From Isoptericola jiangsuensis (GTDB lineage Bacteria > Actinomycetota > Actinomycetes > Actinomycetales > Cellulomonadaceae): DNA of 64,000 bases. Location: positions 868,001-932,000 of the forward strand of contig NZ_PDJJ01000001.1 of assembly GCF_002563715.1 (NCBI RefSeq). The letters run 5' to 3'. Positions 48,574-54,485 of this stretch are shown one piece after another; position 1 is the first letter of the stretch; every line of letters starts with the position of its first letter. The notes beneath the pieces were generated by a model. That model was given only the letters and a program-made list of their open reading frames with translations. It did not search any database and had not been told where the DNA came from. A program made the position numbers and the translations under genes.

Positions 48574-48590
48574 CACCCTCCCGCACGCCC

Positions 48591-48628
48591 CGACGGCCCG
48601 GCACCTGCTCGCAGGTGCCGGGCCGTCG
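48591..48628 (+). terminator. Terminator of the rplK-rplA operon
   Basis: An 18-bp perfect stem (48591-48608 with 48611-48628) closes on a 2-nt gap (in practice a ctcg loop), 17 bases after the rplA stop. The 3' side runs into gtcgtc rather than a T-run, as is usual for GC-rich actinobacterial terminators. Confidence 0.8.
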
Positions 48629-48703
48629 TCGTCCCCGCCGGGGCTCCCGAGCGGTGCCGCGGGTCGGTCCGCCGGGCCCGCCGGACCGGGTGCGCACGAT
48701 TCG

Positions 48704-48729
48704 TGAAGTTTTTCCGCAGACGTGTATCA
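48704..48729 (+). promoter_or_regulatory. A/T-rich candidate promoter of the sigma/CHAT operon
   Basis: TGAAGTTTTTCC (48704-48715) followed by GTGTATCA (48722-48729) is the only A/T-rich stretch in the 320-bp gap between rplA and the sigma gene. It does not fit the housekeeping consensus, so recognition by the operon's own sigma factor is a possibility. The rest of the gap holds the rplA terminator and a ggggcac/gtgcccc hairpin near 48816-48832. Confidence 0.35.
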
Positions 48730-48895
48730 GGCCCGTCGGCGACCCCTCCCTCGCGGGTGACACTGCCGATGAGGTGAAGGGTGAATTCTGGTGACGGGAG
48801 CCATGGAGGGACGCGGGGCACCTGGTGCCCCCCTAGGCTCGTGGCCAGCCCCTGCCCGAGGGGTCCCGCACGACCACGACGAGGTGCCCGCCGTC

Positions 48896-49504
48896 ATGTC
48901 CAGCACTGCCGACACGTCCAGTCTCGGTGACAGGGCGGCGTTCGCGCTGCTCGAGTACCGCGAGGGTCGTCCCGACGCCCTCGGCGACTTCGTCCGCGAG
49001 GCGATGCCGCTGCTGTGGCGGACGGTGCGCGCCCAGGGCGTCAGCCGGGAGGCAGCCGACGACGTCGTCCAGCACACCTGGGCGGCGCTGGTGCGCCACG
49101 CGGACTCGATCACCGAGCCGAAGGCGACCCTGAAGTGGCTGCTGGTCACGGCGCGGCGCGCCGCGTGGGAGGCCGTGCGCAAGGACCGCGCCGACCAGGG
49201 GCACCGCACCGAGCTGCCGGACGACGACGCGGAGACGTCGGCGACGCTCCCGGACGCCGGCCCGGGGCCGGAGGCCGAGGTGCTGAAGGACGAGCGGGAC
49301 CGGCTGCTCTGGCAGGCCCTCGGCACGCTGCCGAAGCGCTGCCAGGAGCTGCTCCGGCTCGTCTCCCTGGCGGACCGCCCGGACTACCGTTCCATCTCCA
49401 CCGCGATCGGCATGCCGGTCGGAAGCATCGGCGCCACTCGGGGACGCTGCCTCGCCAAGCTGCGGGTCGTCCTCACCGAACATGGGGAGGCCTCATGGAC
49501 ATGA
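48896..49504 (+). CDS. Sigma-70-family (ECF-like) RNA polymerase sigma factor
   Basis: The protein has 202 residues from ATG 48896 (gagg 12 bases upstream). The frame opens at 48791, but the extra 35 residues are Gly/Pro-rich and cross a hairpin. Region 2 is at about 20-90 (DFVREAMPLLWRTVRAQGVSREAADDVVQHTWAALVRHADSI, TLKWLLVTARRAAWEAVRKDR). Region 4 is at about 140-195 (LGTLPKRCQELLRLVSLADRPDYRSISTAIGMPVGSIGATRGRCLAKLR). The region 2-4 linker is acidic. It overlaps the next gene by 10 bases and heads the subtilase/CHAT operon, so it probably drives that operon or its regulon. Confidence 0.9.
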   Translation: MSSTADTSSLGDRAAFALLEYREGRPDALGDFVREAMPLLWRTVRAQGVSREAADDVVQHTWAALVRHADSITEPKATLKWLLVTARRAAWEAVRKDRADQGHRTELPDDDAETSATLPDAGPGPEAEVLKDERDRLLWQALGTLPKRCQELLRLVSLADRPDYRSISTAIGMPVGSIGATRGRCLAKLRVVLTEHGEASWT

Positions 49505-49992
49505 CCGAGCTCGACCACGTCCCCGGCGCGGACGACCCGCTCGACGGGCTCGACATCGCGCTGCTCACGCGGCTCGCCACGGTCGACGACCTGCTCGACC
49601 CGGTCCCCGACGGCCTCGTCGAACGGTCCCGCTTCGCGATGACGCTCGCCGGTCTCGAGGCGGAGGTCATGGAGCTGCAGGTCCTCGAGGTCCCCGTCGG
49701 CTCCGTGCGCAGCGACGCCCCGGTGGAGACCCGCACGATCACCTTCACCCACGAACGGCTCACCGTCATGGTCGCGCTGTCCGCGGGCAGCGAGCGCGGC
49801 ACCGTGCGGGTCGACGGCTGGCTCGCGCCGGCCGAGGCCCTCGACATCGAGCTCCGTCGACCCGAGGGGACCGTGACCACCCGGTCCGACGAGGACGGCC
49901 GTTTCGTCATCGAGGACGTCCCGCGCGGGCCCGCCAGCCTGCTGGTCCGGCAGGGCGAGACACCCGTGTCGACGCCGGTCGTCGAGCTGTAG
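49495..49992 (+). CDS. Small two-part protein with carboxypeptidase-regulatory-like fold; candidate sigma partner
   Basis: The protein has 165 residues from ATG 49495, inside the last codons of the sigma gene. The N-terminal ~65 residues are helical (LDIALLTRLATVDDLLDPVPDGLVERSRFAMTLAGLEAEVMEL), a pattern I recall from actinobacterial proteins encoded next to such sigma factors. The C-terminal ~60 residues (VRVDGWLAPAEALDIELRRPEGTVTTRSDEDGRFVIEDVPRGPASLLVR) look like the transthyretin-like CarboxypepD-reg fold. No TM segment is seen. Translational coupling to the sigma gene suggests an anti-sigma or co-regulator; this is inference. Confidence 0.75.
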   Translation: MDMTELDHVPGADDPLDGLDIALLTRLATVDDLLDPVPDGLVERSRFAMTLAGLEAEVMELQVLEVPVGSVRSDAPVETRTITFTHERLTVMVALSAGSERGTVRVDGWLAPAEALDIELRRPEGTVTTRSDEDGRFVIEDVPRGPASLLVRQGETPVSTPVVEL

Positions 49993-50073
49993 CAGCACCC
50001 TGCACCACCTGCACCACAGCGTTGTCGAGCGGTGGGCACGGGCTTCGCCCTGCCCTGATCCGAGGAGGAGCAC

Positions 50074-51861
50074 GTGAGCGAGTCGTACATCCAGGACCCG
50101 GCCGGTGGCCGGCGCCCGGTCCGTCATCTCGACCCGGACCGGGTGCGTCGCAGCCCCGGCGCGGCGCGGGTGCAGGACACCACCTACGTCGCGGACCGGC
50201 TGATCGTCCGCGGCGACCTGCCGCCGTTCCTGCGCGAGCGTCTCGCCGGGGAGTCCGACCGTCTGACGGCGGGCGGGCAGGGAGCGGTCGTCGCGCTGGA
50301 CGACTGGGCGGACGAGGGCGAGCCGACGTCGTGGCTCGACGGCGTGCGGCGGATCGCCACCGAGATGGGCTACCGGGTGGTCTACGACGGCACCCTGGGC
50401 GACCTGGCGGTGGACGACGTCGACGACGAGACGTTCGGGTACGCCCTGCGGTTGGTGCCGGCGCGGGACGACGACGTCGAGGTGGACGTCTGGCAGGTGA
50501 TCGAGCGGATCACGGGCGAGCTGGGCGACCTGGACGCGGCGGACGAGGCGGACGAGGGGGACCGGCCCACCCCGCGGGTCGCGCTCGACCACGTCATGCG
50601 TGCCCAGCGACGGGGGAAGTCGACGCCGTTGCCGTTCGTGCCGGTGGCCCGCCCGAAGTCGACGCCCCTGCCGGTGAGCGCGATCGACGAGTACGGCCGT
50701 CCGGGCACGGGCGGTCTGGCGCCGGTGCGCTACCTCGGCGGCCCGCCGCGCCGGTCGCTGCCGGACGGGGAGACGCCCTGGGTGGCCGCGGACGGCACCC
50801 GCCGCCCCGCGGTGGCGATCGTCGACACCGGTGTCGGGTCGCACGAGTGGTTCGGCCCTTACGTCCCCGACGACCCGCAGGACAGCGCGGTGGTGGTGCG
50901 GACGGCGCAGCTCGAGGACGGCCGCCCCGTCGGGCTCTACCCGGTGCCGGACCTCCCGTCGGAGGACGCGGAGTACGGCGGCCTCAGCGTGGACCCGCTG
51001 ACGGGACCGCTCGACCCCGTGGCCGGGCACGGCACCTTCATGGCGGGGATCGTGCACCAGGTGTGCCCGGACGCCGTGATCGTCGCGGTGCGGGCGTTCG
51101 GCGGCTCGGGGGACATCCCGGAGTGGCAGGTGCTGCACACGCTGTGGCGGCTGCTGCGGTTCCACCGGCGGGGTCAGCGCGGCGACGAGGGCTACCACCC
51201 GATCGACGTGGCGGTCCTGGCGATGGGCTACTACCACGAGCAGCCGGAGGACTACGGGTACGACGGACCCCTGCGGCGGGTGCTGCGGGCGCTGCGGCAG
51301 GCGGGCGTCGTGGTGGTCGTCGCGTCGGGGAACGACGGCACGACGCGGCCCATGTTCCCGGCCGCCTGGGCGCCGCACGTGGTGCGGCGTCCGGCGCCCG
51401 ACACCGCCGTCGGGGAGACCACCGTGCCGGTGCCGGTGGACGACCGCCAGCTCACGGCCGACCACCCGCCCCTGCTGGTGGCCGGGGCGACCAACCCGGA
51501 CGGCACCACCGCGGTGTTCAGCAACGACGGCCCGTGGGTGACGTGCGTCCGGCCGGGGGCGGCGGTGGTCTCGACGATGCCCGACACGATCGACGGTCCC
51601 GAGACCCCGCAGGCGAGCCTGCCCGAGCGGCTGCGGCCGGGCACCCGCGCGTCGGTGGACCCGGACGACTTCACCGGCGGGTTCGCGACGTGGAGCGGGA
51701 CCTCGTTCGCGGCGCCCTACCTGGCCGCCGAGGTCGCCGCGGCGCGCCTGGCCGCCACGCAGCGCGTGGCCGCCCAGGCGGAGCCGGTGAGCGCCGCATG
51801 GGATGCTGTGACGACGACCACCCACCTGTCCGGTGCGGCGATCGGTGGTTCCGACGTGTAG
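50074..51861 (+). CDS. S8 (subtilisin-like) serine protease without signal peptide
   Basis: The protein has 595 residues with a GTG start and gaggagg Shine-Dalgarno. The catalytic triad is complete: Asp251 in AIVDTGVG, His319 in GHGTFMAG and Ser544 in GTSFAAPYLA, with the oxyanion Asn in VVASGNDGT. About 240 residues precede the catalytic domain and contain no hydrophobic signal or TM helix. The beginning is polar (SESYIQDPAGGRRPVRHLDPDRV), so the enzyme should be cytoplasmic. It sits between the sigma partner and the CHAT protease gene, which starts 20 bp after its stop. Two proteases in one operon suggest a cascade. Confidence 0.92.
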   Translation: MSESYIQDPAGGRRPVRHLDPDRVRRSPGAARVQDTTYVADRLIVRGDLPPFLRERLAGESDRLTAGGQGAVVALDDWADEGEPTSWLDGVRRIATEMGYRVVYDGTLGDLAVDDVDDETFGYALRLVPARDDDVEVDVWQVIERITGELGDLDAADEADEGDRPTPRVALDHVMRAQRRGKSTPLPFVPVARPKSTPLPVSAIDEYGRPGTGGLAPVRYLGGPPRRSLPDGETPWVAADGTRRPAVAIVDTGVGSHEWFGPYVPDDPQDSAVVVRTAQLEDGRPVGLYPVPDLPSEDAEYGGLSVDPLTGPLDPVAGHGTFMAGIVHQVCPDAVIVAVRAFGGSGDIPEWQVLHTLWRLLRFHRRGQRGDEGYHPIDVAVLAMGYYHEQPEDYGYDGPLRRVLRALRQAGVVVVVASGNDGTTRPMFPAAWAPHVVRRPAPDTAVGETTVPVPVDDRQLTADHPPLLVAGATNPDGTTAVFSNDGPWVTCVRPGAAVVSTMPDTIDGPETPQASLPERLRPGTRASVDPDDFTGGFATWSGTSFAAPYLAAEVAAARLAATQRVAAQAEPVSAAWDAVTTTTHLSGAAIGGSDV

Positions 51862-51881
51862 GAGGAGGGGGCGGGACCCGG

Positions 51882-54485
51882 GTGACGAGCAGGACGGCCC
51901 TCGACGCGCGCCTGCGTGAGGCGCAGGAGCTCAACGCGGCCTCCCGGGTCCGGCCCGCCTCGAAGGCGTTCCGGGCGCTGCTGCGCGACGTCGCGCCGCT
52001 CGACGCGGCGACGGTCGGCTCCTGGGTGGTGGAGCTGCGCGTGCGGGCGCTCGTCGGCGAGGCGGCGTGCGTGCACTCCCTCACCGGGGACCTGGATGCC
52101 GCCCGGAGGCTGGTCCAGGAGGCCCTCGAGGTCGCGCAGGCGGCAGGGGACACCCGCCTGGCCGCCGTCGCCCACGGACAGCAGGGCCTGTTGCTGCTGT
52201 GGTCGGGTGAGGTGGCGGCTGCCGCGGACGCCTTCGACCGAGCACTGGCGGGTGTGGCGGCCGACAACCACCGCGACCTCGCGGTGCTGCACATCAACCG
52301 CGCGGCGGCCAACCTGGAGTTCGGGCGTCTGGACGAGGTGGTCGTCGACCACGAGGCGGCGCTGCAGCACGCCCGTGCCATCGGTCACGAGCGGTACGAG
52401 GCGTTCGCGGGGTTCAACCTGGGCTACGCGCACTACCGCCAAGGCGACTTCCCGGCGGCGCTGGCCGAGCTGGAGGCATCGGCGCGGCGGCAGCCCGGCG
52501 GACCCGACGGCTGGTCCGAGGTCATGCGGGCCCAGGTCCTCGTCGACGCCGGCCTGGTGTCGGAGGCCGAGCAGGTGCTGGCGGACTCCGAGGAGCTCCT
52601 GGCGACGGAGAACCTCGCCGGCGAGCTCGCGGACGCGCTGTACACCCGAGCGCTCTGTGCCCTGCTGCTGCGGCGCGCGGACGAGGCGACCCGCTGGGCG
52701 CGTCAGGCACGGCGGGCGTTCGCGCGGGTCGGGAACACGACGTGGGCCCTCCAGGCGGAGGTCGTCGAGCTGGAGGCGCGGCTGTCGCAGGACCGCCGCT
52801 CGCCCGGCGTGCGGCAGGCGACCTTGCGGCGGCGGAGCGAGGAGGCGTTGGCCCTGGCCCGGGCGGGGGACGACCGCGGCCCGGCCGCCGTGGCCGGTGT
52901 CTCGGTCGCTGCGCGGCTGCTCGCGGCGGAGTGGGCGCTGCTCGCCGGCGACACGGGTCGCGCTGCCGAGGTGCTCGACGCGGTCCCGCGCCGTCTCACG
53001 GCTTGCCCGCTGCCGCTGCGGCTGCACCACGAGTCGGTGCGTGCGCAGCTGGCGTTCGCGCGGGGGGACCGCCGCGGGGGGCTGGCGGCGGTGCGGCGGG
53101 GGCACCGGGTGCTCGCGGACCACCGGGCGCGGCTGGGGTCGGTGGACACCGTCACGGCGGCGGCGACGCACGGTGCGCGCCTCGCGATCGTGGACGTCGA
53201 GGCGGCCCTGGCGACGGGGCGTGCCGGCACGGTGTTCGACGCGACGGAGCGCGGTCGGGCGGCGTTCGCCGGGGCGGCGCGGGTGCGGCCTCCGGAGGAC
53301 CCGGAGCTGGCGGACCTCATGGCGCGGGCCCGCCGTGCCGCGGAGGAGGCACGCGAGCTGGGTGCCGGTGAGGGTGGTGACGCCCGGGAGGGTGCCCGCA
53401 AGACGGTGGAGGCACGCCGGCTGCAGGAGCGGGCGCGGCAGCGGTCGTGGCAGCTGGGCGGCGCCGCGGGTGGTCCCGTGCCCCGGCCGGCGACGGCGCG
53501 GGCGGTGTCGGCGGGCCTGGCCGGGGACCGGCCGGGTGCCGCCGTCGTGTCGTTCCTGCTGCGGGACCGGCTGACGGCCGTGCGGGTGGACGCCCGGGGG
53601 GCTCGGCTGGTGGAGCTGTGCGCGCAGCCGGAGGTGACCGAGCTGGCCCGCCGGGTGCGGCAGGACCTGGAGGTGCTGTCCAACCGCCTCATCCCGGCGC
53701 CGATGCGGCACGTCGCCGCGACGTCGGCCGGCCGTTCGCTCGCCCGGCTGGACGACCTGCTCCTCGCGCCCCTGGAGGTCACCGGCCCGTTGTACGTCGC
53801 GGCCCGTGACGGCCTGCTCTCGTTGCCGTGGGCGGCGCTCCCGTCCCGGGCGGGCCTGCCGACCCGGGTGCACTCGTGGGTCGACCTCGGGGGGCTGCCG
53901 GAGCCGCCGCACCGGCGGGGCGCCCTCGTGGTCGGTGGTCCCGACCTGGAGTCGGCGGAGCGGGAGGCGGCTCTGGTGGCCGGGGAGTGGGACGAGGTCG
54001 TGCTGCTGACCGGCGCCGACGCCACGTGCGCCGCGACCACGGCCGAGCTGTCGCGTGCGTCGGTGGTGCACGTGGCCGCGCACGGCGTGCACGAGCCGGA
54101 CAACCCGCTGTTCTCCTGTGTGCGCCTGGCCGACGGCCCGTTGTACGCGCACGAGCTCGACGGCGTGGACCTCGCCGGGACGGTGGTGGTGCTGTCGGCG
54201 TGCGAGGTCGGCCGCGCGTCGACCCGGGTCGGGGGAGAGCCCCTGGGGCTCAAGAGCGTCCTGCTGAGGCTGGGGGCGCGCGCCGTGGTGGCGTCGGTGG
54301 CGCCGTTGCGCGACGACGTCGCCGCCCGGGTGATGCCGCGGCTGCACGCGGCGCTCGCCGCGGGGGAGGCGCCGGCCGCGGCGCTCGCCACGGCGGTGGA
54401 GCCCGAGCAGGAGCCGGTCCCGTTGGTCTGCTACGGCCCGTTGCCACTGGACAAGGGGCTGCTGGGGTCCGTCCCGGCGCGCTAG
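51882..54485 (+). CDS. TPR-CHAT caspase-like protease
   Basis: The protein has 867 residues from GTG 51882; the open frame extends far upstream but overlaps the subtilase. Residues ~1-450 are tetratricopeptide-like helical repeats (for example LHINRAAANLEFGRLDEVVVDHEAALQHARAIG). A charged helical region spans about 490-550. The C-terminal ~300 residues form a CHAT domain: YVAARDGLLSLPWAALPS, then His734 in HVAAHG and Cys774 in VLSACEVGR, the caspase-type dyad. TPR regions sense a partner and release CHAT activity in known systems. Cytoplasmic. Last gene of the sigma-subtilase-CHAT operon. Confidence 0.92.
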   Translation: MTSRTALDARLREAQELNAASRVRPASKAFRALLRDVAPLDAATVGSWVVELRVRALVGEAACVHSLTGDLDAARRLVQEALEVAQAAGDTRLAAVAHGQQGLLLLWSGEVAAAADAFDRALAGVAADNHRDLAVLHINRAAANLEFGRLDEVVVDHEAALQHARAIGHERYEAFAGFNLGYAHYRQGDFPAALAELEASARRQPGGPDGWSEVMRAQVLVDAGLVSEAEQVLADSEELLATENLAGELADALYTRALCALLLRRADEATRWARQARRAFARVGNTTWALQAEVVELEARLSQDRRSPGVRQATLRRRSEEALALARAGDDRGPAAVAGVSVAARLLAAEWALLAGDTGRAAEVLDAVPRRLTACPLPLRLHHESVRAQLAFARGDRRGGLAAVRRGHRVLADHRARLGSVDTVTAAATHGARLAIVDVEAALATGRAGTVFDATERGRAAFAGAARVRPPEDPELADLMARARRAAEEARELGAGEGGDAREGARKTVEARRLQERARQRSWQLGGAAGGPVPRPATARAVSAGLAGDRPGAAVVSFLLRDRLTAVRVDARGARLVELCAQPEVTELARRVRQDLEVLSNRLIPAPMRHVAATSAGRSLARLDDLLLAPLEVTGPLYVAARDGLLSLPWAALPSRAGLPTRVHSWVDLGGLPEPPHRRGALVVGGPDLESAEREAALVAGEWDEVVLLTGADATCAATTAELSRASVVHVAAHGVHEPDNPLFSCVRLADGPLYAHELDGVDLAGTVVVLSACEVGRASTRVGGEPLGLKSVLLRLGARAVVASVAPLRDDVAARVMPRLHAALAAGEAPAAALATAVEPEQEPVPLVCYGPLPLDKGLLGSVPAR

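Follow-up and report, generated by a model that had tools for sequence, protein, structure and literature searches.

Between the ribosomal protein genes rplA and rplJ of Isoptericola jiangsuensis lies a compact operon of four genes, analysed here within a window of 64,000 nucleotides (contig NZ_PDJJ01000001.1, positions 868,001 to 932,000), which is part of a 4.04-Mb single-contig genome. The genes encode, in order, a sigma factor of the extracytoplasmic function (ECF) type, a small protein, a subtilase of family S8 and a TPR-CHAT protease, and we consider the set a candidate proteolytic switch for its own sigma factor. A preliminary description had reported four forward, tightly spaced genes, with a 165-residue partner protein whose gene overlaps the sigma gene by 10 bases, and both coordinates and Pfam matches agree with it. 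The features of the locus, in window positions, are as follows.

48591 to 48628, plus strand: strong hairpin 3′ of rplA (-47.6 kcal/mol for 48585-48650, z -5.15), likely a terminator parting rplA from the operon
48723 to 48750, plus strand: ECF-type promoter-like motif TGTATC-N17-CTCYY, located by pattern matching, a putative autoregulated operon promoter
48791 to 49504, plus strand: ECF sigma factor gene (Pfam and TIGR02937), its start uncertain, with an in-frame ATG at 48896 also possible
49495 to 49992, plus strand: gene for the small protein (165 residues), a putative soluble anti-sigma factor, overlapping the sigma gene by 10 nucleotides
49708 to 49710, plus strand: codon of the invariant Arg72, a candidate protease cleavage site in a low-confidence linker (conservation and predicted structure)
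50074 to 51861, plus strand: S8 subtilase gene (595 residues), its product cytoplasmic-looking, with the triad Asp251/His319/Ser544 (Pfam, alignments); a replaceable component
51882 to 54485, plus strand: gene for a TPR-CHAT caspase-like protease (867 residues) with His734/Cys774 (Pfam, alignments); the constant protease of the set

Three of the four products fall into well-defined families. The sigma protein is an ECF sigma factor by the TIGR02937 sigma70-ECF model (70.3 bits against a cut-off of 42.9); its Sigma70_r2 match lies over the Pfam cut-off (1.1e-07) and its Sigma70_r4_2 match under its own. The last protein carries a CHAT domain (PF12770, 2.6e-27, 96.5 bits against a cut-off of 24) together with TPR_1 repeats (1.9e-06), and the third is a Peptidase_S8 protein (PF00082, 4e-13, 49.8 bits against 21.8). 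The catalytic residues named in the preliminary description hold up in alignments, which identify both as peptidases. His734 and Cys774 of the CHAT protein are kept in 40 of 40 rows of the first alignments and in 127 of 129 distinct sequences, with gaps in the other two, while Asp251, His319 and Ser544 of the S8 protein are kept in 39 of 39 rows and in 128, 129 and 128 of 129 distinct sequences. These first alignments of 40 and 39 rows comprised loci L011-L056 and the window, cut or poor copies being left out. A simple hydropathy scan shows no signal-peptide-like or membrane-helix-like stretch in any of the four (best 19-residue mean 1.59), and on this measure all four look cytoplasmic.

The set recurs well beyond this genome. 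Searches recovered the small protein from 47 of 98 relatives (16 of the 18 members of the window's genus among them) and from 102 of 393 genomes of the class. The complete arrangement rplA-sigma-small-S8-CHAT-rplJ is present in 29 of 46 fetched relative loci, and a further seven of the 46 keep this order of the four genes but show only one ribosomal flank or none. Placement between rplA and rplJ is found in most loci of the window's family. Sigma and small-protein genes overlap by 4-16 nucleotides in 38 of 44 relative loci and in 65 of 78 named loci, the genomes being partly the same. Across the class, gene order and orientation vary and the members recur: with genes called as profile hits above 25 bits, 49 of 80 fetched class loci contain all four genes, 20 contain sigma and small protein only, six lack only S8, and five have other combinations. 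When duplicate genomes were removed, 124 loci reduced to 96 distinct ones. Among these, 71 have the four genes and one has the four genes plus a trypsin-like protease; 16 have a trypsin-like protease instead of S8, three lack CHAT, three hold sigma and small protein only, and two have CHAT without either serine protease. Sigma, small protein, S8 and CHAT thus occur together in 72 of 96 distinct loci, and the four-gene arrangement is not due to chance.

The association between the small protein and CHAT also extends to whole genomes. Among the 98 relatives, 46 carry both, one only the small protein, ten only CHAT and 41 neither; among the 393 class genomes, searched with the CHAT stretch alone as query, the corresponding numbers are 100, 2, 73 and 218. 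CHAT is therefore present in 46 of 47 relatives and 100 of 102 class genomes that carry the small protein, and the rarity of co-occurrence that would have spoken against a recurrent set did not materialise. Fisher p-values for this co-occurrence ignore kinship. Absences from these genome searches are soft, since only a limited number of first-look candidates was scored, and the apparent exceptions are themselves weak small-protein matches (class genomes G381 and G471 at 8e-4 and 6e-4; relative G066 at 4e-5). The sigma and small-protein pair is kept even where the proteases lie elsewhere: all 21 such genomes tested, namely 18 of those behind the 20 class loci that hold just the sigma and small-protein genes, plus G179, G076 and G092, encode a TPR-CHAT protein at another position. 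Twenty CHAT loci were fetched from 19 of these 21 genomes (G158 and G261 are not included), and 17 of the 20 carry an S8 homologue. In one of the unlinked genomes, G092, the CHAT gene (L249:6510-9254) lies among ribosomal-protein genes, named by eye, and so again beside translation genes as in the window. In four genomes (G019, G023, G043 and G047) two TPR-CHAT matches stand in tandem, which suggests duplication of the protease.

The serine protease of the set varies. In Cellulomonas-type loci a trypsin-like protease takes the place of S8 (the 16 of 96 distinct loci counted above), which leaves CHAT as the constant one of the two proteases and makes the serine protease look like an exchangeable output. 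In the named Cellulomonas loci the trypsin-like gene and the sigma gene point away from each other, and wherever this was checked the former stands behind a copy of the sigma motif described below. His, Asp and Ser are conserved in all 18 trypsin-like rows (among them L218, L220, L226, L230, L232, L233 and L242), and Trypsin_2 matches lie over the cut-off in two of three proteins tested and under it in one. The S8 protein (P0003) had no genome-wide match at E 0.001 in any of four tested genomes whose operon lacks S8; three of these have the trypsin-like gene, and one (G026) does not. These data bear on the two-protease cascade put forward in the preliminary description, here taken to mean that CHAT would activate S8, or the reverse, with the small protein as a side target. 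Conservation of both active sites would suit such a cascade, as would the neighbouring position of the two protease genes in the 72 four-gene loci. However, the N-terminal region of S8 contains no invariant Arg (best 101 of 130; a site of another kind may exist), and S8 is absent or gives way to an unrelated fold in loci that keep CHAT, sigma and small protein. We therefore consider a cascade improbable.

The small protein is predicted to consist of two helices (residues 18-34 and 41-64), a linker, and a beta domain at about residues 80-165 that resembles CarboxypepD_reg (6.6e-05, under the curated Pfam cut-off) as well as Ig/CBM-like domains. No peptidase family is among its Pfam matches, and among PDB chains none scores below E 0.19 against its profile. 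Within the linker, a single arginine, Arg72, is invariant in 176 of 176 distinct sequences and in 25 of 25 after clustering below 40% identity. For this count, rows under 34 bits were left out beforehand, and 204 rows became 199 on removal of identical strings and 176 on removal of identical cores, some genomes being present in duplicate. The residue that follows is Gly, Ser, Ala or Thr in 172 of the 176, other Arg make up only 2.5% of the linker, and Arg72 lies inside the sole segment (66-73) with a predicted local distance difference test score (pLDDT) below 50. Loci that have a trypsin-like gene or lack S8 contributed 19 rows, and every one of these retains Arg72. From conservation and the structural model, Arg72 looks like a candidate cleavage site. 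The preliminary description had suggested that the small protein holds the sigma factor and is itself a possible target of proteolysis. The gene overlap and the invariant linker arginine make both roles plausible.

Upstream of the sigma gene we find a conserved promoter-like motif, RTGTATC[AT]-N17-CTC[CT][CT]. Of the 77 named loci, which also served to find it (three of 80 were left out as having no usable sigma start or upstream stretch), 57 have it in the stretch from 400 nucleotides upstream of sigma to +60. These 57 sites fall in 35 kb upstream of sigma; the rest of this strand, 1.12 Mb in all, has five, and a control pattern gave none upstream. In 100 class and CHAT loci not used for motif finding there were 90 motif matches and eight control matches. 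Spacer length is sharply defined, with 77 sites at 17 and between 0 and 10 at any other length examined. In the window, where 0.02 matches are expected, the strict motif has a single match, and within the genus it stands at the operon in all 16 genomes with the small protein. Among the 52 class sites that could be assigned to a member gene, 27 stand before sigma and 20 before S8, some distances possibly being due to chance. In nine sigma-first loci the start codon follows the motif by 33-34 nucleotides, a spacing that would suit leaderless transcripts. Ahead of the sigma gene in the window, a GTG-started frame of six codons (48757-48777) begins 33 nucleotides past the GTATC of the motif and is either a leader peptide or chance. 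The coupled transcription anticipated in the preliminary description gains support from this conserved motif, and transcription by the sigma factor is probably directed at its own operon and, at this stringency, at little else.

Additional, lineage-specific sigma targets are possible. Genes for Tle1-like phospholipases, possibly a second target, have the motif at or closely upstream of them in L272, L295 and L297 (genomes G014, G001 and G015); Pfam assigns those of L272 and L295 to PF09994, and that of L297 was recognised by eye. ATPase-type regulator genes start 33 nucleotides past a sigma motif in L144, L149, L159, L160 and L161, some 5 kb from the operon; the one in L161 is LuxR-type by Pfam, and the others were called by eye. 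In two further loci (L105:3120-3434 and L114:3082-3396) a protein of 105 residues, with a weak ORF126-like match under the cut-off, directly follows CHAT behind its own sigma motif.

Taken together, these features lead us to propose that CHAT cuts a small anti-sigma factor at Arg72 and so frees a self-amplifying sigma factor, a reading to which we assign an even chance. The small protein would be a soluble anti-sigma factor, its N-terminal helical part holding sigma and its C-terminal beta domain serving in sensing or docking. TPR-CHAT would act as a sensor-protease: once a signal or partner engaged the TPR part, CHAT would cut the small protein after Arg72 in the linker and release sigma. The freed sigma factor would then transcribe its own operon from the TGTATC-N17-CTC promoter, yielding more sigma, CHAT and serine protease. 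The last of these, S8 here and trypsin-like in Cellulomonas, may be an interchangeable effector acting on cell proteins. The sequences supply the gene set, its conservation, an invariant Arg in a predicted flexible linker, the promoter-like motif and the replacement of one protease by another; from these we infer sigma binding, CHAT cleavage at Arg72, the existence of a signal and the effector role.

Several observations weigh against this proposal. No anti-sigma family appears in the Pfam matches of 51 small-protein members up to E 0.5, the helical part not having been fold-searched alone. Low pLDDT is no proof of disorder, and Arg72 could be a contact with sigma. Covariation between sigma and small protein does not support N-terminal sigma binding, since 31 of the top 40 pairs fall in the beta domain (84 of 155 positions) and the signal looked like one of subfamilies. 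As for the motif, its genome-wide count alone is no evidence, since the control pattern matches twice in the window's own genome and the strict motif once, at the operon. Twenty of 77 named loci have no motif near sigma, among them eight S8-first loci of which only two have one near the S8 start, and in genomes with two loci the CHAT/S8 locus is mostly without it (spacing 17 in two of 19 scanned). In an alternative reading, the small protein would be an anti-sigma factor released by ligand or TPR binding without cleavage, with Arg72 a contact for sigma or CHAT, and CHAT acting on other substrates. The spacing from the helical part to Arg72 is indeed fairly steady, at 9-15 residues in all but one of 176 distinct sequences, and an Ig/CBM-like beta domain would fit such a mode of release. 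Nevertheless, the distance from Arg72 to both flanking domains varies, the surrounding linker is poorly conserved, and the preference for a small residue after the arginine is strong, and we regard release without cleavage as unlikely.

The preliminary description had also raised a stress or anti-phage response; in the latter case the set would be an abortive-infection module sensing phage. Type III-E CRISPR, in which a CHAT protease cleaves a sigma inhibitor (PMC10028731), offers an analogy that may favour defence, and the serine proteases are exchanged as effectors are. Against this, most family loci have the operon placed between rplA and rplJ, and comparison with PADLOC gave no match below E 0.01 (best E 0.018, BovA, and 0.03, DpdI). 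A close-relative scan of viral contigs found no relative; plasmid records gave one match, in an 11.85-Mb molecule, and one further match lies in an unverified 7.5-kb 'phage' contig. Gene placement and the PADLOC, viral-contig and plasmid comparisons speak to sequence and location, not function. We see no support for an anti-phage role and think it improbable.

The gene neighbourhood itself is already in print. Section 3.3 of the review PMC8999054 describes neighbours of ECF54 sigma factors with carboxypeptidase, subtilase and CHAT domains, the same kinds as here, and calls the ECF54-type mechanism mainly actinobacterial. Our operon has this genetic context, its CarboxypepD_reg match being under the Pfam cut-off, and so matches the description of a sigma switch of the ECF54 neighbourhood type, the group being assigned from gene context. 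Citing Huang 2015 and Casas-Pastor 2021, that section offers as a proposal that ECF54 is controlled by proteolysis without an anti-sigma factor, and the review tabulates ECF54 among the ECFs that have none. Under such a model the neighbouring proteases would degrade sigma, and the small 'carboxypeptidase' would be another protease or a helper. The printed passage and table favour it, as do the shared domain kinds. However, the small protein resembles a carboxypeptidase solely in a regulatory-like beta domain, with no peptidase family among its Pfam matches; it accompanies the sigma gene even without CHAT or S8 alongside, and it has an invariant linker Arg. Further, if enzymes expressed from sigma's own promoter destroyed it, the factor would presumably be self-limiting rather than silent at rest. 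We therefore judge this model rather unlikely. As listed in the review, ECF54 control rests on gene neighbourhood; unlike the 'carboxypeptidase' described there, the protein here is in two parts, a regulatory-like beta domain and a linker with an invariant Arg, and the promoter-like motif and serine-protease replacement are added here to the review's account. In the literature searched, as far as its available portions extend, we met no description of the linker Arg, nor of the motif or of one protease replacing another, and absence there is not proof. The neighbourhood is thus known and the mechanism newly constrained: Arg72, the fixed-spacing motif and the S8-to-trypsin swap make ECF54 control a one-residue, one-promoter question.

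Three further systems invite comparison with the proposed cleavage of a soluble anti-sigma factor. In the RseA/DegS system, as recounted in a passage of PMC10028731, a protease cuts an anti-sigma factor and frees an ECF sigma factor; RseA is membrane-bound, whereas the four proteins here look cytoplasmic. The EACC2 systems reported in PMC8195603 are like our set in that a peptidase of the caspase superfamily is associated with an ECF sigma factor and a TPR protein. Those systems are built on EACC2 and partly on TRADD-N, neither of which Pfam or NCBIfam reports here, though the libraries may lack both. The nearest worked-out mechanism is Craspase (CASP) of type III-E CRISPR, in which, according to the account of it in PMC10028731, the TPR-CHAT protein Csx29 cuts Csx30, an inhibitor of CASP-sigma. 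There, as here, the gene for a TPR-CHAT protease stands together with those for an ECF-like sigma factor and its inhibitor, the latter putative in our set. By analogy our set may work like Craspase yet is no member of it, since its CHAT protein scores 17.3 bits against the Csx29 model NF041237, far from the cut-off of 300. The PDB result for the small-protein profile given above marks a further difference, as does the serine protease that belongs to the set here. No CRISPR or gRAMP gene is among the four genes or their flanks rplA and rplJ, no search for Cas7-11 or CRISPR arrays having been made. We speculate, with some doubt, that a CRISPR-free, chromosomal version of Craspase-like logic is widespread in actinobacteria, in which a TPR-CHAT sensor would cut a soluble anti-sigma factor after one invariant Arg and fire a self-amplifying, nearly private sigma factor. 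The serine protease, cytoplasmic and interchangeable, might be its main output, which would make the whole a bacterial caspase-to-executioner circuit that runs through transcription. If true, control of an ECF sigma factor by CHAT through an inhibitor would be a general cytoplasmic signalling scheme of a large bacterial class and not a peculiarity of CRISPR.

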